Below, piece by piece: positions 2,491 through 12,487 of a DNA stretch of 64,000 bases (its first letter is position 1; every line of letters starts with the position of its first letter). Made by a program: the position numbers and the translations under genes. Location of the stretch: positions 1 to 64,000 of the forward strand of contig JANYHM010000028.1 in the NCBI GenBank assembly GCA_025359065.1, in the 5' to 3' direction. Source of the stretch: Synechococcales cyanobacterium GL140_1_metabinner_5_sub. GTDB taxonomy: Bacteria > Cyanobacteriota > Cyanobacteriia > Cyanobacteriales > Chamaesiphonaceae. Below the pieces are notes generated by a model, which made no database searches, was not told the DNA's origin, and was given only the letters and a program-made list of their open reading frames with translations.

Positions 2491-4155
2491 CTACGATGAT
2501 TTCTCATTGCCCGTAATCAAACAATCCAAAGCTTTAGACTTTTGACTAAAAAGAAAATTCTCCCGATAATCTACTGGGCAATCGATCACTGTGGGTACAT
2601 CCTGAGCCAACGCTTCCTGCAACGTCGGCAGCAGCCCCGCCGCTGTACTCACTCGATACCCCTTCAGCCCCATACTCTCTGCCAACTTCACAAAATCAGG
2701 ATTCCCAAACTTAATAAACGACGAAACCCCAAAATGCTGCATCTGCTTCCATTCAATTAACCCATAGCCCCCATCATTAAAAATCAACGTCACAAAAGGA
2801 GTATTCAACCGCAGCGCCGTCTCCAACTCCTGCATATTCATCATAAATCCTCCATCGCCCGTCGCTGCCACCACCTTGCGATCGGGATACACCAACTTAG
2901 CCGCGATCGCCCCTGGAATTGCAATACCCATCGCTGCAAAACCATTAGAAATTAAACAAGTATTGGGCTTTGCACAATGATAATGCCGAGCAATCCACAT
3001 CTTATGGGCACCCACATCCGAAATCAAAATATCGTCATCTCCCAACACCTGTCGCAGATCATAAATCAACTTTTGCGGACGAATCGGAAACCCCTGATCC
3101 TCTGCATACTGCTCATAATCCGCCCGAATCTCATTGCGTAAAGAAAGAGCATAGGGTTTAGTAGTAGGCACTGGCAACTTCTGACATCGTTGCAAAATCT
3201 CCTTCAGCGAATCCGCAATATCACCCACCACTTCCTCTAGGGGAATATAACTACTATCAATCTCTGCCGGAACTTCCGCAATGTGCACGATCGGAATATC
3301 CCCGTTCGGATTCCACTTCTTCGGCGAATACTCAATCAAGTCGTAGCCTACCGCAATTACTAAATCAGTCTGATCAAACCCACAGCTAATATAGTCACGC
3401 TGCTGTAAACCTACTGCCCACAGCGCCAAAGGATGAGTGTAAGGAATCACTCCTTTACCCATAAAAGTATTCACTACCGGCAAATTCAACGCCGTTGCCA
3501 ATTCCGTCAACATCTCACTAGCCTGAGAACGAATCGCCCCATTCCCCACCAGCACGATCGGGTTCTTAGCCTGAGCAATAATCTCCGCTGCTTGATCGAG
3601 ACTGGCAAAAGAAGCATAGACCCGATGGGAACCATTATTATGTAGTGGTTTCACCGTCACCGGCATTGCTGCTACATTTTCTGGCACATCAATATGTACT
3701 GCTCCCGGCTTCTCTGTTTGAGCAACCTGAAAAGCTCTGCGCACAATTTCCGCAGTACTATTTGGCTGGACAATTTGCTTGCTCCACTTGGTAATCGGCG
3801 CAAACATTGCTACTAAATCTAGATACTGGTGCGATAAAATGTGCATTCGATCGGTGCTTACCTGCCCAGTAATCGCAATCAATGGTGCCCCATCCAAATT
3901 GGCATCGGCCACCCCAGTCATCAAATTAGTTGCCCCTGGCCCCAAGGTAGATAGACAGACCCCAGCCTTGCCAGTCAAACGCCCATAAACATCTGCCATA
4001 AAAGCTGCACCCTGTTCGTGACGACAGGTCACAAACTGAATAGAGGAGTCTTTTAGTGCTTCTAAAATATGCAGGTTTTCTTCCCCTGGCAAACCAAAAA
4101 TATACTCTACGCCTTCATTTTCTAGGCATTGTACCAATAGTTCTGCGGTATTCAT
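2491..4155 (-). CDS. ogdA: 2-oxoglutarate decarboxylase (acetolactate-synthase-like ThDP enzyme)
   Basis: This is a 554-residue thiamine-diphosphate enzyme. The N-terminal PYR domain has GLPGEENLH (residues 21-29) with the activating Glu. The C-terminal PP domain has the GDG(X)nN Mg/ThDP motif (ATGDGGFMMN). Such acetolactate-synthase-like proteins next to an SSADH gene were shown in Synechococcus PCC 7002 (A2770/A2771) to decarboxylate 2-oxoglutarate to succinic semialdehyde, closing the cyanobacterial TCA cycle. Here too it follows the SSADH gene by 7 bp, so the assignment rests on context as well as family. I chose the ATG at 4155 because MNTAELLVQCLENEGVEYIF is the usual beginning and GAGAAG lies just upstream; a longer frame to 4254 would overlap the SSADH gene. 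A true acetolactate synthase large subunit is the alternative. Confidence 0.8.
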   Translation of the reverse strand: MNTAELLVQCLENEGVEYIFGLPGEENLHILEALKDSSIQFVTCRHEQGAAFMADVYGRLTGKAGVCLSTLGPGATNLMTGVADANLDGAPLIAITGQVSTDRMHILSHQYLDLVAMFAPITKWSKQIVQPNSTAEIVRRAFQVAQTEKPGAVHIDVPENVAAMPVTVKPLHNNGSHRVYASFASLDQAAEIIAQAKNPIVLVGNGAIRSQASEMLTELATALNLPVVNTFMGKGVIPYTHPLALWAVGLQQRDYISCGFDQTDLVIAVGYDLIEYSPKKWNPNGDIPIVHIAEVPAEIDSSYIPLEEVVGDIADSLKEILQRCQKLPVPTTKPYALSLRNEIRADYEQYAEDQGFPIRPQKLIYDLRQVLGDDDILISDVGAHKMWIARHYHCAKPNTCLISNGFAAMGIAIPGAIAAKLVYPDRKVVAATGDGGFMMNMQELETALRLNTPFVTLIFNDGGYGLIEWKQMQHFGVSSFIKFGNPDFVKLAESMGLKGYRVSTAAGLLPTLQEALAQDVPTVIDCPVDYRENFLFSQKSKALDCLITGNEKSS

Positions 4156-4162
4156 AAACTTC

Positions 4163-5536
4163 TCACTTAACCCAAATAGTTTTGATATTAACAAACTCCA
4201 GAATTCCAGGTCGCCCCAACTCCCGACCATACCCCGATCGCTTAATACCCCCAAAAGGCAAACGCGGATCGGACTTTACCATGCCATTGATAAAGACCGC
4301 ACCGGACTCCAATTCTTGAATAAAACGCTCTTGCTCGGCAGCATCCTGAGTCCAGGCACTGGCACCCAAACCAAAAGGACTATCGTTAGCCAAAGCGATC
4401 GCCCCATTTAAATCGGGCACAGTAAATAGCAAAGCCACCGGACCAAAAAATTCATCTTGGTAGGTAGCACAAGTCGGCGGGATATTCTTCAGAATAGTGG
4501 GCTCATAAAAATATCCCGGTAATCCAGACCACTTTTTGCCACCAATTAAACATTCCGCTCCCCCCGCGATCGAAATCTGTACCTGCCGATCTATCTCCTC
4601 ACAGCCTGCCAAGGTAGCCAAGGGGCCAACATCAGTAGTGGTCTGCAAAGGGTCGCCGATCTGGAGCTGACGAAATGCCTGCACAAACTTAGTAGTAAAA
4701 GCGGCAGAGATCGACTCCAGCACAATAAAACGTTTGGCCGCGATACAAGATTGACCATTATTGAGCAATCGCGCTTTCACCGCCACCGTTACCGCCTCAT
4801 CTAAATCTGCACTAGCCGTCACAATAAACGGATCACTACCGCCTAGCTCCAACACGGTTTTTTTTAAAACTTTCCCCGCCGCCTGAGCTAAACTGATTCC
4901 GGCTGGTTCACTGCCAGTCAAAGTAGCCGCTTTCACCTGGGGCGCACTAATCACCAGCTCCACCTGAGCTGCGGAAATTAACAGCGTTTGAAATACTCCC
5001 GCTGGAAACCCCGCTTTCAGGAAAATCTCTTCGATCGCCAGCGCACATTGAGGCACATTAGAAGCATGTTTCAGCAGCGCCACATTTCCCGCCATCAGGG
5101 TGGGAGCCGCAAACCGAAACACCTGCCAGAAAGGGAAATTCCAAGGCATCACAGCCAAAATTGCCCCCAGAGGCTGGTACTCCACCCAAGATTGACTGGC
5201 ATCAGTGGTGACTAATTCTGGCGCTAACAATTTGGCACCGTGCTCGGCGTAGTAATCGCAAACCGAGGCGCATTTTTGTACTTCGGCGATCGCCTGTTCG
5301 ATCGGTTTGCCCATCTCTAAAGTCATGAGCTGCGCCCATTTTAGTGACTGCTGCTCATCCCGCAGGAGTTCAGCAGCTCGATGCAGCCACATACTGCGCT
5401 GTACCCAAGAAGTATGGCGATATTTCTGGAACGCTTGATCGGCCTCTAAAATCTTGGATTGTAAGATCTCGCTGGTGAGAGCAGAGAAAGTTTTTAGCTG
5501 TTGACCGGTCGCGGGGCTAGTGCTGGCAATACTCAT
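4163..5536 (-). CDS. gabD: NAD(P)-dependent succinate-semialdehyde dehydrogenase
   Basis: This is a 457-residue aldehyde dehydrogenase superfamily member. Visible catalytic features are PWNFPFW (oxyanion Asn133), ELGGSDP (general-base Glu230) and GQSCIA (nucleophile Cys264). The C-terminal PFGGIKRSGYGRELG segment is typical of SSADH-type enzymes. It would oxidise succinic semialdehyde to succinate, the second step of the cyanobacterial 2-oxoglutarate bypass. The downstream 2-oxoglutarate decarboxylase gene starts 7 bp after the stop, so the two are almost certainly co-transcribed. A 100-bp gap separates it from the upstream kinase-like gene, so it probably has its own promoter. Substrate identity is inferred from the pairing. 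Confidence 0.85.
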   Translation of the reverse strand: MSIASTSPATGQQLKTFSALTSEILQSKILEADQAFQKYRHTSWVQRSMWLHRAAELLRDEQQSLKWAQLMTLEMGKPIEQAIAEVQKCASVCDYYAEHGAKLLAPELVTTDASQSWVEYQPLGAILAVMPWNFPFWQVFRFAAPTLMAGNVALLKHASNVPQCALAIEEIFLKAGFPAGVFQTLLISAAQVELVISAPQVKAATLTGSEPAGISLAQAAGKVLKKTVLELGGSDPFIVTASADLDEAVTVAVKARLLNNGQSCIAAKRFIVLESISAAFTTKFVQAFRQLQIGDPLQTTTDVGPLATLAGCEEIDRQVQISIAGGAECLIGGKKWSGLPGYFYEPTILKNIPPTCATYQDEFFGPVALLFTVPDLNGAIALANDSPFGLGASAWTQDAAEQERFIQELESGAVFINGMVKSDPRLPFGGIKRSGYGRELGRPGILEFVNIKTIWVK

Positions 5537-5636
5537 AGGTATAAATTACCGCTTAGAGATGACCTGAATGTTCTACTTTGATCGTGGCAAACTTTGGCAC
5601 CGTAATACCCAAATATCCGAGAAACATGACGAAAAT

Positions 5637-6356
5637 TTACATTGAACCAGAAGCGATCGGCAACAGCACCCGAAACCGAGAACCAGTATCAACTTGGCTC
5701 ACCACCGAAATCGAACCGCCACAGCGCAACAAAATTTTTTGTACCACCGTCAAACCCAAACCAGCACAGCTCACCTGATTTTCTGGCGGCAAATTGCGAC
5801 CACGATAAAACCGGTCAAATATCCTCGGCAAATCGGCACTGGGAATCCCCACCCCGTTGTCTCTAAACTCCAACTGTACATAGTTATTTTGTACAGCGCC
5901 ATAAATATAGATCGCTCCACCCCGCAACGTAAACTTCAGCGAGTTATTCAACAAGTTCATCACAATTTGCTTTAGCCCAGCCTCCGAGCAACTCACCAGC
6001 GGCAAATCGGCAGGTAAATTACAAGACAACGAAATGCCTCGCTCTCCAGCCAAAGGCTGAAAAGTCCCCACCACCGCTGGCAAAATATCAGCAACATTGG
6101 CCTGACCACTTTCCAATGACTGCTTCTCCACCTCCAACAACTTAGTAGTACCATCTAACAAAGCATTTTGTCGATTACACTCCCCCCGAATCATCTCCAA
6201 ATACTTCGATCGCTGTGTAGGCTTCAAATTTGGAGAATCTAGCAGCGACAAAGCAGTCTTAATAGTAGTAATTGGTGCCCGCAACTCCCTAAAGAGATCA
6301 TCGATTGATGACCCCTCCTCGGTAGGTTCAGCAGGTGAGGGAGTTAAATTACTCAT
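5637..6356 (-). CDS. sensor histidine kinase-like protein lacking the H-box His
   Basis: This is a 239-residue soluble protein with a HisKA-like dimerisation helix pair (residues about 18-75) and a HATPase_c domain (about 100-236). The ATP-binding boxes are intact: N-box NLLNNSLKF (134-142), G1 DNGVGIP (166-172), F-box FDRFYRG (180-186), and G2 GLGLTVV (199-205). In the H-box the canonical HELR is RELR, with Arg23 in place of the phospho-accepting His. There is no sensor domain and no membrane segment. Its start codon overlaps the murE stop (ATGA, 4 nt), so it is translationally coupled to a peptidoglycan gene. It may be a non-phosphorylating ATPase or scaffold, or a family that naturally uses RELR. 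No response regulator is adjacent. Confidence 0.8.
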   Translation of the reverse strand: MSNLTPSPAEPTEEGSSIDDLFRELRAPITTIKTALSLLDSPNLKPTQRSKYLEMIRGECNRQNALLDGTTKLLEVEKQSLESGQANVADILPAVVGTFQPLAGERGISLSCNLPADLPLVSCSEAGLKQIVMNLLNNSLKFTLRGGAIYIYGAVQNNYVQLEFRDNGVGIPSADLPRIFDRFYRGRNLPPENQVSCAGLGLTVVQKILLRCGGSISVVSQVDTGSRFRVLLPIASGSM

Positions 6357-7834
6357 GGTCTAGCAGATAAAGCGGCGCGGGCTTGCTCTCGATCGTCAAA
6401 GTGAATCTTTTCGGTACCAATAATTTGATAATCTTCATGACCCTTACCAGCAATCAGCACTCCATCTTCCGGTTTCGCTTCCCGAATCGCCTTCGCGATC
6501 GCCTCTGCCCGATCGGCGATTACCTGAATCGGTCGATCGCCCGGAATCCCCGCCACCACATCCGCCAAAATAGTCTCAGGGTTCTCGGTACGGGGGTTAT
6601 CGGAAGTCACAATCACCTGATCCGCCAAATCTGAGGCAATCTTACCCATCAAAGGCCGTTTAGTCCGATCTCGATCGCCACCACAGCCAAACACACAAAT
6701 CATTTGACCATTAATGAATGGACGAGCAGCTTTCAGCAAATTCTCTAAACTATCAGGGGTGTGTGCATAATCTACGATCACGCTAATTTGTTGAGTATCT
6801 GCAACTTTCACCTGCTCCATTCGCCCCGGTACACCAGGGAAATTAGCCACAGCAGCCACGATACTATCCAAGTCCATGCCTAAGTGCAGAGCACAACCCA
6901 CCGCCGCCAAAACGTTTGCTAAATTGTAGTCGCCAACTAAGGGGGATGTAAAAGGTCGATCTCCCAAGGGCGTATGCAGAGTCCCCGAAACCCCAGTAGA
7001 AGAATAGGTCAACTGATCAGTCCACAGATCCGCCTCCGAATTTTTAGCGCTATAGCTCCACACTCTTTCCTTTGGCAAACCAGCAATCAACTTTTTACCA
7101 TAGGCATCATCAAAATTGATAATTCCTCGTCCCTGCAAATATTCTGGAGAAAAAAGTAGAGCCTTCGCCTGAAAATAAGTCTCCATATCCTGGTGGTAAT
7201 CCAGGTGGTCTTGAGTGAGGTTAGTAAATACCCCAATCTCAAACAGACAAGACTTGGCACGGCCTTGATCGAGAGCATGGGAGCTGACTTCCATCAAAGC
7301 AACTTGACAGCCTGCTTTCACCGCCTCTGATAGCTGCTGCTGTAAATCCACCGCAAAAGGCGTGGTGTGAGTAGCCACTTTTTGATAGCCCTGCCAACGG
7401 GTATACAGAGTTCCGAGCAGAGCCGTGGATTGATGGTCAGCTAACAAAAATTCAATAATGTGAGTGGTAGTAGTTTTACCGTTAGTACCAGTCACCCCCA
7501 CCATTCTCAGGGTCTGAGCTGGGTAATTATAAAAAGCCGCTGCCAGATCAGCACTGGTTTGAATCATATTCTCGGCAGCAGCCACACAGGCATCTTTAAT
7601 CGGCTGCGTTTTGGCTGCTGCATTAGAAATCACTGCCGCCGTGGCTCCACTCTCGATCGCCCCTGGCCAAAATTCGCCCCCATCAACCCGCGTACCAGGC
7701 ATTCCAATAAACAGGTCTCCGGCTCCACAGGCATGAGAGTTGGTTTTGAGTCCGGTAATATCAGCATCTAGCGCTGGATGAGTAGGCAGATGCTGAATAT
7801 TGGGGACTTTCGAGAGAAGTTCACGCAGTTTCAT
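6353..7834 (-). CDS. murE: UDP-N-acetylmuramoyl-L-alanyl-D-glutamate--2,6-diaminopimelate ligase
   Basis: This is a 493-residue Mur ligase, the usual family length. It adds meso-diaminopimelate to UDP-MurNAc-dipeptide in the cytoplasm. The ATP-binding loop GVTGTNGKTTTTH lies at residues 113-125, the carbamylated-Lys region follows FTNLTQDHLDYH, and the DNPR tetrapeptide (412-415) that recognises meso-DAP is present, so this is the DAP enzyme and not the lysine type. It lies 34 bp downstream of a glutaredoxin-like gene and overlaps the following kinase-like gene by 4 nt, giving a grx-murE-kinase operon. Confidence 0.95.
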   Translation of the reverse strand: MKLRELLSKVPNIQHLPTHPALDADITGLKTNSHACGAGDLFIGMPGTRVDGGEFWPGAIESGATAAVISNAAAKTQPIKDACVAAAENMIQTSADLAAAFYNYPAQTLRMVGVTGTNGKTTTTHIIEFLLADHQSTALLGTLYTRWQGYQKVATHTTPFAVDLQQQLSEAVKAGCQVALMEVSSHALDQGRAKSCLFEIGVFTNLTQDHLDYHQDMETYFQAKALLFSPEYLQGRGIINFDDAYGKKLIAGLPKERVWSYSAKNSEADLWTDQLTYSSTGVSGTLHTPLGDRPFTSPLVGDYNLANVLAAVGCALHLGMDLDSIVAAVANFPGVPGRMEQVKVADTQQISVIVDYAHTPDSLENLLKAARPFINGQMICVFGCGGDRDRTKRPLMGKIASDLADQVIVTSDNPRTENPETILADVVAGIPGDRPIQVIADRAEAIAKAIREAKPEDGVLIAGKGHEDYQIIGTEKIHFDDREQARAALSARP

Positions 7835-9319: not shown

Positions 9320-10297
9320 TTGAACTTTGATCGCATCGATAAACTATTAAATGAGTGGCAGCAGAAGGCCGCAATGGTGAGCCAAAACCTGCTAGAACTC
9401 TATGAACTGTCAGCCTATCAGAGGCTGAGTGATGCTTCGGTGCGCCAACAGTTACCCAGTCCCATTCAGCAGCAAGTTGATGAGGCGATCAATCAAGTAG
9501 ATCGGCTATTTGAATATTTTCAATTACTCTGTGATGCTCTAGAGCAAGCTAAAGATTTGCGCAAACAGGCTGGATGTTTTGGAGCCAAAGACAATCTGTT
9601 GCCTAAAATTGAGAACTTACTAACCAATGAATGGATTGTCATGAACCAGCAACAGGTGCCTTTGGCACAGCGCAGCCTGGTTTCGCCGTTGATAGCTGGA
9701 GAAATGCTATCGCTCGATCGGCTGTTAGAAACTATGACCGATTTGTTTCAATCAGCCGTGGCCACTTTTTCCGAAATTGAACGAGTTGAACAAAACGTAG
9801 CAAAAGATCTACAGGTTGCCCGCCACAGCTTACAAGAAATCCAGGCACTGCATTTAATGACCATTACCACCCATCAAGAAGCCACTGAAAAATGTGGGGA
9901 GAAATGTGGTGAGACTAGTCAAAAGCTGATAAATCCTGTAGAAATCACCACTCTGGCTGACTGGTTGCAAAATCTGGAAACCAAGTTTGGTCAGGGATCA
10001 TTACAAACCGTGGCGATCGCTCTGCAAAATTGGTTAGTAAAAGCTGGTCAAATCCGGCAAGAAATTCAAGATAACCTAGACTATCAGCGTGGTAGACTAC
10101 AGCTTCGCCTAGAATTACGTGGGCGGTTACTAGCATTGAAATCCAAGGCAGTGGCTAAATGTCGATCAGAAGACCCCATACTAATCAACATTGCTCAACG
10201 GGCGGAGGCTTTATTACATCGCCGCCCGACACCAATTGATGTAGCGGCTGATTTGGTGGTGCAATACGAACGAAGGCTGAATAGCGATTTTGAATAG
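9320..10297 (+). CDS. coiled-coil protein of unknown function, paired with pknG
   Basis: This is a 325-residue, Gln- and Leu-rich, mostly alpha-helical soluble protein. It has no signal peptide, membrane segment or recognisable catalytic motif. Long heptad-like stretches occur around residues 50-75, 140-175 and 245-290. The stop is 12 bp before the PknG-type kinase gene, so the two form one transcription unit. That makes it a candidate scaffold, substrate or regulator of the kinase. The start is a TTG at 9320 preceded by only weak Shine-Dalgarno sequence; the next ATG (9374) would remove 18 residues. A Cys-containing duplicated stretch (EKCGEKCGE, about residue 193) is a small oddity. Confidence 0.7.
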   Translation: MNFDRIDKLLNEWQQKAAMVSQNLLELYELSAYQRLSDASVRQQLPSPIQQQVDEAINQVDRLFEYFQLLCDALEQAKDLRKQAGCFGAKDNLLPKIENLLTNEWIVMNQQQVPLAQRSLVSPLIAGEMLSLDRLLETMTDLFQSAVATFSEIERVEQNVAKDLQVARHSLQEIQALHLMTITTHQEATEKCGEKCGETSQKLINPVEITTLADWLQNLETKFGQGSLQTVAIALQNWLVKAGQIRQEIQDNLDYQRGRLQLRLELRGRLLALKSKAVAKCRSEDPILINIAQRAEALLHRRPTPIDVAADLVVQYERRLNSDFE

Positions 10298-10309
10298 GAT
10301 AACTAAACT

Positions 10310-12487
10310 ATGACTGACTTTAAATGCCAGCGTTCTGGTTGTACTGGATCGATCGAAGACGACTACTGCAATCTTTGTGGTCATGCAGCGGCCAAGGAAG
10401 CGCTATCTGCAACCCTGCCCAGTGCCATCACATCGGTCAGTGCTCTATCAGTGCCAATGCCAGTTAGTCGAGCTTCTACGGCTTCGCGGCGGACTTATGG
10501 CTCTAGACCCAGTGGTACTGCCAGTCGCGGACGGGTCTTGGGTGCCGGCTTAGTGACCATTAATGAATTGCCCTCGGCAGACCCCGAAAAATTGATATTA
10601 GCCAAGGCCGTGGTGCCCGAAAACAAGCGGTTTTGTAGTAAGTGTAATGCTAGTCTCATCCGTGAGACTGGCTTTTGTAATAAGTGTGGCCAAAAGTTTT
10701 CTTTTATTGCCGCTTTAGCTCCCGGAGATTTGGTAGCAGGACAATATGAAGTGCGGGGTGCGATCGCCTATGGGGGTTTGGGCTGGATTTATCTGGGGTT
10801 CGATCAAGTACTCTCCCGCTATGTAGTTTTAAAAGGATTGATGAATACCGCCGATCAGGCCAGTGCAGCGGTGGCGGTGGCCGAGAAACAGTTTTTGGCA
10901 GCGGTGAAACATGCCAATATTGTAGGAATTTATAACTTCGTCAATCACCAAGATACTGGCCTAATTATTATGGAATACGTAGGTGGCCAAACCCTCAAAG
11001 AGCTACGAAAAAGCCGAGGGGCATTGCCAGTACCAGAGGCGATCGCCTATATTCACCGGATTTTGGGAGCTTTTGGTTACTTACATCAACAGGGCTTGGT
11101 CTACTGCGATTTTAAACCCGACAATATTATGCTGGAAGGCAGCGATGTGAAACTGATCGATATGGGTGGGGTAAGGAGCATCAAAGATCAAGATGGAGAT
11201 ATTTATGGAACAGTGGGCTATAGTGCACCCGAAGCAGGAGCAGGGCCAACGATCACAACCGATTTATTTACGATCGCTAGAACTTTGGCAATTTTGGTAA
11301 CTACTATTCCAGATTTTAGCAGCAATAATCGCTATACATTACCAGGAGATTTACCGGTATTTATTAAATATGAATCACTCTATCGCTGTTTGATGAAGGC
11401 TACTGCCGAGCACCCAGATGATCGGTTTCAAACTGCCGAAGGAATGGCTTCCCAGCTTTTAGGCGTTTTGCATGAAGCCGTGGCGATCGATACCCAAAAA
11501 GCACAGCCGTTTAAAAGCCAGTTGTTTGGTGGTGATCTGCTGGCAAATACCGACAGTGGTGAGCTGTTAGCCAGAGTACTACCAAATCACCAGCAGTTGC
11601 CTCTGCATCAAATTCACCCGACCGATCCAGCATTTCAAGACTTGATGAATGCCACCAGTGATATGCGTGGTGATGTCCATCAGCAGCACAAAATCTGCAA
11701 AGAATTAGTCACGAAATATCCGCGATCGGTTGAGGCCAAGCTGCGTTTGGTTAAAACCGAGGCAGACCTGGGCTACATCGACTTTAAAGAAACTGACCAG
11801 CATCTCCAAGAAATAGAACAAGTCGATCCTTGGGATTGGCGGGTACCGTGGTATCGCGGTCGCATAGCCCTCGCCTGCCAAAATTATCAATTAGCGATCG
11901 ACTGTTTTAATTTTGTCTATGCCGATTTGCCCGGTGAAGTTGCCCCCAAATTAGCTTTGGCCATGGCCATGGAGTTGAACGGAGATCATGCAGTGGCGAA
12001 CCATTTATATCAACGAGTCTGTCAGATTGATCCGGGTTATCACACGGCGGTGTTTGGCTGGGCGCGCTGTTTATATGCCAATCAAAAGCGATCAGAAGCA
12101 GTGCAGGCGTTGAACTTAATCCCCCAAACGGCTAGTTTGTTTCCCAAGTCTAGGGTAGAGGCGGTGAATTTAATGATTGGCCAAGACTATGGAGCACCTA
12201 GCTTAAATGATTTGCAGACAGCTCGGGAGGCTTTGCCAGGAATACCAATTAGTGAGTTAGAGCGCTGTAAATTGTCAGAGCAGATCTTACATCGCGCGTT
12301 AGAGGTGAAACCTGCTGGGGCTATTTTACCGGCTGGTCATCCATTGCCACCTTGGTTGCACGAAGAAAAAAGCACTCGCCAAGAGTTGGAGGCGGTGCTG
12401 CGATCGATGGCCAGACTTACTAATGGTGAAGAAAGAATTGCTTTGGTCGATCGGGCTAACCGCATTCGACCACGCACTTGGCTCTAG
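10310..12487 (+). CDS. pknG: PknG-type serine/threonine protein kinase (zinc ribbons + kinase + TPR)
   Basis: This is a 725-residue protein with the same order as mycobacterial PknG: a regulatory N-terminus, a rubredoxin-like metal site (Cys109, Cys112, Cys123, Cys126), a kinase domain (about 145-400) and a C-terminal TPR region (about 430-725). An extra N-terminal zinc ribbon (Cys6, Cys11, Cys20, Cys23) is present. Kinase residues are the Gly loop GGLGWIYLG (155-163), Lys175, catalytic Asp267 in YCDFKPDN (no HRD arginine, as in PknG) and Asp284 in IDMGG. Segments such as AGQYEV, LGWIYL, MEYVGGQ and GEVAPKLALA match PknG closely. In actinobacteria PknG phosphorylates GarA/OdhI and so controls 2-oxoglutarate dehydrogenase. 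It overlaps the convergent hemW stop by 4 nt and follows a coiled-coil gene. Confidence 0.9.
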   Translation: MTDFKCQRSGCTGSIEDDYCNLCGHAAAKEALSATLPSAITSVSALSVPMPVSRASTASRRTYGSRPSGTASRGRVLGAGLVTINELPSADPEKLILAKAVVPENKRFCSKCNASLIRETGFCNKCGQKFSFIAALAPGDLVAGQYEVRGAIAYGGLGWIYLGFDQVLSRYVVLKGLMNTADQASAAVAVAEKQFLAAVKHANIVGIYNFVNHQDTGLIIMEYVGGQTLKELRKSRGALPVPEAIAYIHRILGAFGYLHQQGLVYCDFKPDNIMLEGSDVKLIDMGGVRSIKDQDGDIYGTVGYSAPEAGAGPTITTDLFTIARTLAILVTTIPDFSSNNRYTLPGDLPVFIKYESLYRCLMKATAEHPDDRFQTAEGMASQLLGVLHEAVAIDTQKAQPFKSQLFGGDLLANTDSGELLARVLPNHQQLPLHQIHPTDPAFQDLMNATSDMRGDVHQQHKICKELVTKYPRSVEAKLRLVKTEADLGYIDFKETDQHLQEIEQVDPWDWRVPWYRGRIALACQNYQLAIDCFNFVYADLPGEVAPKLALAMAMELNGDHAVANHLYQRVCQIDPGYHTAVFGWARCLYANQKRSEAVQALNLIPQTASLFPKSRVEAVNLMIGQDYGAPSLNDLQTAREALPGIPISELERCKLSEQILHRALEVKPAGAILPAGHPLPPWLHEEKSTRQELEAVLRSMARLTNGEERIALVDRANRIRPRTWL

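Follow-up and report, generated by a model that had tools for sequence, protein, structure and literature searches.

A conserved gene module around PknG includes a new protein family and occurs in split form in a cyanobacterial genome

The stretch of DNA analysed here, called the window, comprises positions 1-64,000 of contig JANYHM010000028.1 from a Synechococcales cyanobacterium that is a relative of Chamaesiphon. Its forward strand carries an open reading frame (ORF) for a helical protein of 325 residues, for which "coil protein" is used as shorthand, followed after 12 bases by pknG, the gene of a 725-residue protein kinase (Table 1). The coil protein and PknG are conserved as a pair across three bacterial phyla in one six- or seven-gene module, which also includes a zinc-ribbon PP2C phosphatase, a vWA protein, a zinc-ribbon FHA protein and a GlnX-like membrane protein; in the window's genome the module is present and split. 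Below, G and a number denote a genome (G000 being the window's own) and L and a number a locus or region.

By its domain make-up the kinase is a true PknG: the rubredoxin, kinase and TPR domains are all matched, and the best PDB match is Mycobacterium tuberculosis PknG (2pzi, E 3.2e-116, residues 75-723 aligned). Translation starts at an ATG at 10310; the rubredoxin domain before the kinase has two CxxC pairs (CSKC...CNKC), and the catalytic residues are retained, namely the Lys (VVLKG), the catalytic Asp (YCDFKPDN) and the Asp of DMG (LIDMG). The additional N-terminal ribbon has four cysteines that are invariant in all nine aligned PknG sequences, the window's included, and are found also in Acidobacteriota and Nonomuraea; this ribbon presumably binds zinc. 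In 15 of 25 distinct PknG N-termini caught by a pattern scan (Cyanobacteriota, Acidobacteriota), the segment that joins the first ribbon to the rubredoxin domain contains the stretch TGTGS, possibly a site of autophosphorylation or of FHA docking. A PknG homologue has been noted in Calothrix (PMC8546545, whose available text does not mention its neighbourhood), and a kinase adjoining the ferredoxins fed4/fed5 carries the label 'pknG' in PMC4284462, possibly no more than a clash of names.

The coil gene starts with TTG, at the alignment column where its relatives begin, and the nearest relative of the window's genome reaches 81% for the coil protein. The product has no match near the cut-off in Pfam or NCBIfam (best E 0.16 and 0.18) and no sequence match in the PDB up to E 1; it also lacks any strongly hydrophobic stretch, its Kyte-Doolittle maximum being 0.85. 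An AlphaFold2 model is nearly all helix (mean predicted local distance difference test, pLDDT, 83; predicted template modelling score, pTM, 0.63), with residues 110-126 below 50. VIA-align of this model gave EzrA as the best match (Z 11.3) and a DnaK-lid-like match for the last 65 residues (Z 8.2); both scores are in the range that helical bundles give by chance, and neither fold was accepted. The ribosomal protein eS17, the best PDB match of the coil profile (2.5e-4), was likewise set aside as looking like a helical chance match. Judged from its sequence, the coil protein is firmly placed as a new protein family without recognised domain. The preliminary description of this DNA had proposed a two-gene unit, a PknG of complete layout with an extra N-terminal ribbon, and a partner of no known family, and all of these points hold: both ORFs lie on the same strand at the coordinates given for them, the three PknG domains and the four cysteines are there, and the partner matches no catalogued family.

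Table 1. Features of the coil-pknG pair in the window (positions in nucleotides of the window)
Feature	Position	Strand	Basis or remark
Helical coil protein, 325 residues	9320..10297	+	Its family accompanies PknG in Cyanobacteriota and Acidobacteriota and in a single actinobacterium
C-terminal region with the highest conservation in the coil protein (residues 260-321, ELRGRL...ED...RPTP), modelled as helix	10097..10282	+	Alignments and AlphaFold2 model
PknG protein kinase, 725 residues	10310..12487	+	ORF, Pfam, PDB match, alignment
Additional N-terminal four-cysteine ribbon (C6, C11, C20, C23)	10325..10378	+	Alignment of nine sequences
PknG rubredoxin domain PF16919, residues 74-135	10529..10714	+	Pfam 2.5e-14
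Kinase domain, extent of the PF00069 match (residues 146-341)	10745..11332	+	Pfam 2.5e-30
PknG_TPR domain PF16918, residues 428-723	11591..12478	+	Pfam 5.1e-53

Conservation in other genomes had been set beforehand as a test that could refute the proposal, and the pair proved to be shared across genomes of Cyanobacteriota and Acidobacteriota. Among 60 relatives, the window's own genome counted, 10 encode the coil protein and 9 encode PknG (E 1e-60), the genomes being the same except for G007. A survey of 386 genomes of the window's phylum found PknG (E 1e-70) in six and the coil protein (E 1e-3) in the same six plus a weak match in G111 (1.2e-4); among 297 Acidobacteriota, PknG was found in two and the coil protein in the same two plus a weak match in G545 (2.3e-4). 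Fisher tests for the phylum and the Acidobacteriota give 2e-13 and 2e-5 without the weak matches and 2e-12 and 7e-5 with them, values that are optimistic given the kinship of the genomes. The association is also one of position. A coil-profile search yielded 22 named loci (21 from cyanobacteria and one from Bryobacterales, L049), and in 14 of these the coil gene is followed on its own strand by pknG, at gaps of up to about 0.4 kilobases (kb) except in L033 (2.7 kb) and L049 (4.2 kb, a gap that holds other ORFs). The remaining eight comprise five Chamaesiphon loci, two in which the contig stops right after the coil gene, and one (L036) with no PknG within 10 kb downstream. In the acidobacterium G636 the two genes are about 20 bases apart.

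In relatives the pair opens a larger cluster. The order coil, PknG, zinc-ribbon PP2C, vWA, zinc-ribbon FHA, GlnX-like membrane protein is seen in 7 of the 22 loci (L031, L038, L039, L040, L044, L047 and L049), L039 and L049 being truncated in the final, membrane-protein gene. Pfam confirmed the domains for L044 (Phormidium sp. LEGE 05292) and those of FHA and GlnH also for Nonomuraea. All six genes are likewise present in G084 and G168. A panel of 20 genomes, 15 with and 5 without the coil protein, separates along the same line: among the positives GlnX and vWA were found in 15 of 15, the specific FHA protein (E < 1e-49) in 14 (not in G004) and the specific PP2C (E < 1e-60) in 12, and none of the four was found in any of the five negatives, two of which are incomplete assemblies (G006, 82%; G008, 77%). 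Weaker matches to FHA in all five negatives and to PP2C in two of them are read as other FHA and PP2C proteins. One of the panel searches also took in two Acidobacteriota, both positive. The actinobacterial sample consisted of plasmid-collection records only, with PknG in five, of which four were examined; here Nonomuraea gerenzanensis is the sole bearer of the full set, with all six genes and a GlnH-type solute-binding lipoprotein, and the Tsukamurella and Nocardia farcinica records have GlnX-GlnH-PknG (GlnX and GlnH named by position and homology). The available portions of the open-licence literature searched yielded no description of the cluster. Two further arrangements were observed: in G146, a 46-residue stretch between PknG and vWA (L106, 8814-8951) matches the end of the zinc-ribbon PP2C, an apparent decay of the phosphatase in a second lineage; and G089, a distant member of the same phylum, has two copies of coil-GlnX-FHA-vWA in another gene order (L114 and L115), one of them with PknG and PP2C.

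In the window's own genome the second half of the module lies on contig C71, with vWA (about 5234-6523), FHA (6545-7159) and GlnX-like (7210 to about 8628) genes in that order. A comparable dispersal is seen in the nearly complete Chamaesiphon genome G003, where all six genes occupy four places (PP2C-vWA-FHA; GlnX; PknG; coil). Because the genes have been retained despite such scattering, the products of the module would appear to work together. The preliminary description had contrasted the pair with the glnX/glnH-linked pknG of actinobacteria; the window's pknG is indeed not in an operon with glnX and glnH, its usual context, but the contrast fails, as a GlnX homologue is encoded on C71 and stands within the cluster in relatives. 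On sequence grounds, then, GlnX is present in this genome and only unlinked from pknG. Two genes upstream of the vWA-FHA-GlnX trio (L102, a region of C71) lies a kinase-like ORF at 3156-4262, whose Pkinase match (2.3e-7) is just under the Pfam cut-off.

The assignment of the membrane protein as a GlnX homologue is drawn from profile comparison: a profile built from cyanobacteria only aligns with the Tsukamurella GlnX at an hhalign E of 2.2e-9 over 312 columns and with the Nonomuraea protein at 3.7e-36 over 429, and the coil profile, as a control, gives 0.53 against the same Tsukamurella GlnX. Cyanobacterial and actinobacterial GlnX-type proteins have in common a C-terminal G-x3-R-x2-E-Y/F. A model of the L044 sensor (pLDDT 86, pTM 0.82) shows a pair of four-helix bundles. 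The first is most similar to chain L of 5xsj (Z 18.1, root-mean-square deviation, rmsd, 1.4 over 121), the XylFII-LytSN complex, which we read as a sensor domain together with the solute-binding protein that it binds; the second matches PcaY (6s1a, Z 14.2, rmsd 1.9 over 135). The two bundles agree with the description of GlnX in the available text of PMC9769921 and with the four-helix-bundle domains reported in that of PMC6069109. The Pfam four-helix-bundle model places L044 below cut-off (3.8e-4) and has no match in the Nonomuraea, Tsukamurella and own-genome proteins. Nutrient sensing through GlnX is probable.

The FHA protein encoded on C71 matches PF00498 (9.6e-13), and in all eight aligned members the protein starts with a CPxxH...CxxCG ribbon-like motif followed by a CxxC...CxxCG-like one. 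GarA/OdhI is a small FHA protein whose short N-terminal tail can be phosphorylated and which is not known to carry a zinc ribbon, and a protein of this kind had been proposed as something to look for in the genome; a module FHA protein was found, but it is a zinc-ribbon FHA protein encoded beside vWA and not a plain GarA/OdhI. GarA is called unique to Actinobacteria in the part of PMC12321487 available. The alignment of the FHA profile with Sulfolobus ArnA runs from the second ribbon to the end of the FHA domain (5a8i, 1.3e-6; 8s05_C, 5.5e-7). For the vWA profile the best PDB sequence is 4fx5 (4.5e-147) and the second is 8s05_A (3.3e-14), the latter over the vWA domain (44-212). We read 8s05 as the ArnA-ArnB complex from PMC12852372 and the chain lengths, its PDB label being only 'Conserved protein'. 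According to the available text of that article, the Arn switch goes from loose to tight, driven by the kinase ArnC, with PP2A as phosphatase. The tail of the vWA protein reads S-x-x-T-x-R-I/L in all 18 distinct tails passing the filter, STVTTRI of the window's own genome included. FHA domains favour a +3 residue such as I or L, and the threonine of this tail is a candidate both for the PknG site and for the FHA ligand.

We favour the reading, which we hold to be rather probable, that the pair in the window is half of a conserved Ser/Thr phosphosignalling module, the other half (vWA, zinc-ribbon FHA, GlnX-like) lying on C71. A membrane sensor with two extracytoplasmic four-helix bundles would detect an extracellular nutrient (amino acids in actinobacteria) and would signal inward to PknG, perhaps via the short tail G-x3-R-x2-E-Y/F, with the coil protein as scaffold or adaptor among the sensor, PknG and the PknG substrate. 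PknG would then phosphorylate the threonine in the C-terminal tail of the vWA protein, the FHA domain of the zinc-ribbon protein would bind that phosphothreonine, and the vWA-FHA complex, by analogy with ArnB and ArnA in Sulfolobus, might be switched between loose and tight. In relatives PP2C would reset the switch; in the window's genus another phosphatase would have to serve.

Several observations weigh against this interpretation. The zinc-ribbon PP2C was not found at E 1e-30 in G000 or its sister G001, and G146 has the remnant only, so that the module either works without PP2C or decays. Coil and pknG are unlinked in Chamaesiphon and L036, the coil gene of G389 is inverted at the far end of the cluster, and G007 (89% complete) has the coil protein with no PknG match at 1e-60. 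Likeness to ArnA and ArnB may be that of generic FHA and vWA domains: the plant FHA protein 1uht outscores ArnA for the FHA profile, and weaker FHA matches occur in all 20 panel genomes. The tail motif is not without deviation, since the G089 vWA tail (one of two copies, dropped by the filter) keeps T-x-R with neither the S nor the I/L, and that of 4fx5 has A instead of I/L; the TGTGS stretch was missing from PknG of the window's genus in the N-terminus scan. The own-genome sensor has no Pfam match, and, where GlnX has four transmembrane segments, its hydropathy exceeds 1.6 at three places, a fourth being read from the alignment by eye; no GlnH-like gene was found at 1e-5 near the cyanobacterial sensors in 14 regions and the window. 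For the coil protein, Foldseek found no PDB match to the model at E 1e-3, nothing above helical background, and its role as scaffold or adaptor is one that we purely infer.

A different output would follow if PknG phosphorylated the zinc-ribbon FHA protein itself, as with GarA/OdhI, the FHA protein then inhibiting or releasing 2-oxoglutarate or glutamate enzymes and the vWA protein being an accessory scaffold. Kinase, sensor and module FHA protein are all present, as this requires, and the window holds a candidate enzyme: the preliminary description had linked the pair to a 2-oxoglutarate decarboxylase encoded nearby. The gene in question, 2491-4254, is called acetolactate synthase by NCBIfam, over cut-off, and overlaps an aldehyde dehydrogenase gene at 4163-5536, whose best NCBIfam match is NADP-dependent succinic semialdehyde dehydrogenase, under that model's cut-off. 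In cyanobacteria 2-oxoglutarate decarboxylase, presumably of the acetolactate-synthase enzyme family, is, we assume, paired with succinic semialdehyde dehydrogenase; the gene is possibly misnamed, its overlap with the aldehyde dehydrogenase gene being as expected for the decarboxylase. In L044 the cluster ends about 0.2 kb from a decarboxylase-like gene, again followed by an aldehyde dehydrogenase gene. Across genomes, however, the claimed link is not supported. At E 1e-120 the enzyme is present in 22 of 30 coil-bearing genomes and has no match in eight (G005, G007, G009, G010, G089, G421, G429 and G433), several of which are incomplete or of quality not known, and only for G005 and G009 are a completeness of 90% or more and a contamination of 5% or less on record. 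Outside the window, one (L044) of 36 stretches (22 loci and 14 regions) has the enzyme gene in the flanks searched, many flanks being short (28 bases downstream in L046) and a 26% match to another thiamine pyrophosphate enzyme in L105 being left out of the count. Enzyme and module genes are on different contigs in eight genomes (G001, G002, G004, G012, G084, G146, G168 and G389), which leaves room for a nearby position in some of them, most of all in G001 with both genes close to the ends of their contigs; G003 has them at 0.73 and 5.60 megabases of a single contig. For the genomes behind L030-L050 the search covered the flanks only. The two close linkages, in the window and in L044, are curious for such distant lineages. 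Since the window was picked for this feature, only one of them is independent, and because eight of the 30 genomes have no match, the decarboxylase does not appear to be a necessary target; as an obligate target it was rejected. Together with the ribbon-like motifs that the FHA protein carries where GarA has its short N-terminal tail, these distributions make phosphorylation of the FHA protein itself an unlikely account.

Still another output, control of surface structures or cell aggregation (type IV pili, exopolysaccharide) in place of central metabolism, is suggested by ArnA and ArnB, which control the archaellum: the FHA and vWA proteins match them, and in the available part of PMC12852372 the Arn kinase, phosphatase and nutrient input parallel the module. 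What recurs beside the module, as far as it was identified, is the module's own genes, though several further groups seen in three or four loci may yet include genes for pili or polysaccharides; the output in S. acidocaldarius need not transfer, and we consider such an output here quite unlikely. It is very improbable that the coil protein is a mere stabilising chaperone of PknG without signalling role, beside which the remaining cluster hitch-hikes by coincidence. The lack of a recognisable domain, and a pair that forms its own locus in the window, would suit a chaperone; yet vWA, FHA and GlnX accompany the coil protein in all or nearly all positive genomes and in none of the five negatives, even where the genes are dispersed.

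Compared with the actinobacterial GlnH-GlnX-PknG-GarA/OdhI system, the module is alike in the rubredoxin-kinase-TPR make-up of PknG, in a GlnX-type sensor with two helical extracytoplasmic domains, and in an FHA protein; it differs in the added coil, vWA and zinc-ribbon PP2C proteins, in an FHA protein with ribbon motifs, in a PknG with an extra N-terminal ribbon, and in that GlnH was found near none of the cyanobacterial sensors examined. With Sulfolobus ArnA-ArnB(-ArnC/ArnD, PP2A), as described in the available text of PMC12852372, it shares a zinc-finger-plus-FHA protein encoded beside vWA, a Ser/Thr kinase, a phosphatase and a nutrient input; that text mentions no GlnX-type sensor, likeness of the vWA proteins was seen here over the vWA domain only, and ArnC has a TPR-like stretch in a kinase architecture that otherwise differs from PknG. 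A full-length homologue of the module vWA protein is known in structure from Catenulispora acidiphila (4FX5, caci_2163), with the tail STKTVRAKR. Adjoining genes for a kinase (often with zinc ribbon), a PP2C and a stand-alone vWA protein also characterize the GAP1-N2 neighbourhoods of Actinobacteria (PMC7159879), but these are centred on a GTPase, and the paper uses neither the word PknG nor the word GlnX. More tentatively, and with less confidence than doubt, we suggest one seven-part nutrient-signalling circuit common to Actinomycetota, Cyanobacteriota and Acidobacteriota. In it GlnH, GlnX and the coil protein as adaptor would act with PknG, a vWA protein of ArnB type that carries the phosphate on its tail, a zinc-FHA protein of ArnA type as reader and a PP2C as eraser. 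The mycobacterial GlnH-GlnX-PknG-GarA would be a stripped or re-targeted form of this circuit, the Arn switch a cousin, and the coil protein a missing PknG partner. If true, this would connect the archaeal ArnA-ArnB switch with a kinase pathway of bacteria. In the much-studied mycobacterial PknG the route from GlnX to the kinase and its other substrates are open questions, for which the cluster gives three candidate partners outside pathogens (coil, vWA and zinc-FHA).

A role in anti-phage defence was considered and rejected: in a PADLOC scan of seven proteins only the kinase matched (33 families, via the kinase domain), with no match for the coil, vWA, FHA and GlnX proteins. Around the pair in the window, a divergent M48 peptidase gene lies upstream and a convergent radical-SAM gene downstream, and the unit therefore consists only of coil and pknG. 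With GTAN8TAC as the consensus for an NtcA box, none occurs in the 110 bases before the coil gene (13 exact matches window-wide against 6.7 expected); a promoter scan of the window gave no promoter-like site before that gene, and promoter-like and terminator sites are about as many as in shuffles (8 against 5.6 and 5 against 3.4). Among the actinobacterial records, the Nocardia NBC_00511 plasmid (L062, 925-5814 and 8830-11211) carries a PknG without adjoining GlnX/GlnH; genes for an NAD-glutamate dehydrogenase and for an amino acid permease are nearby.

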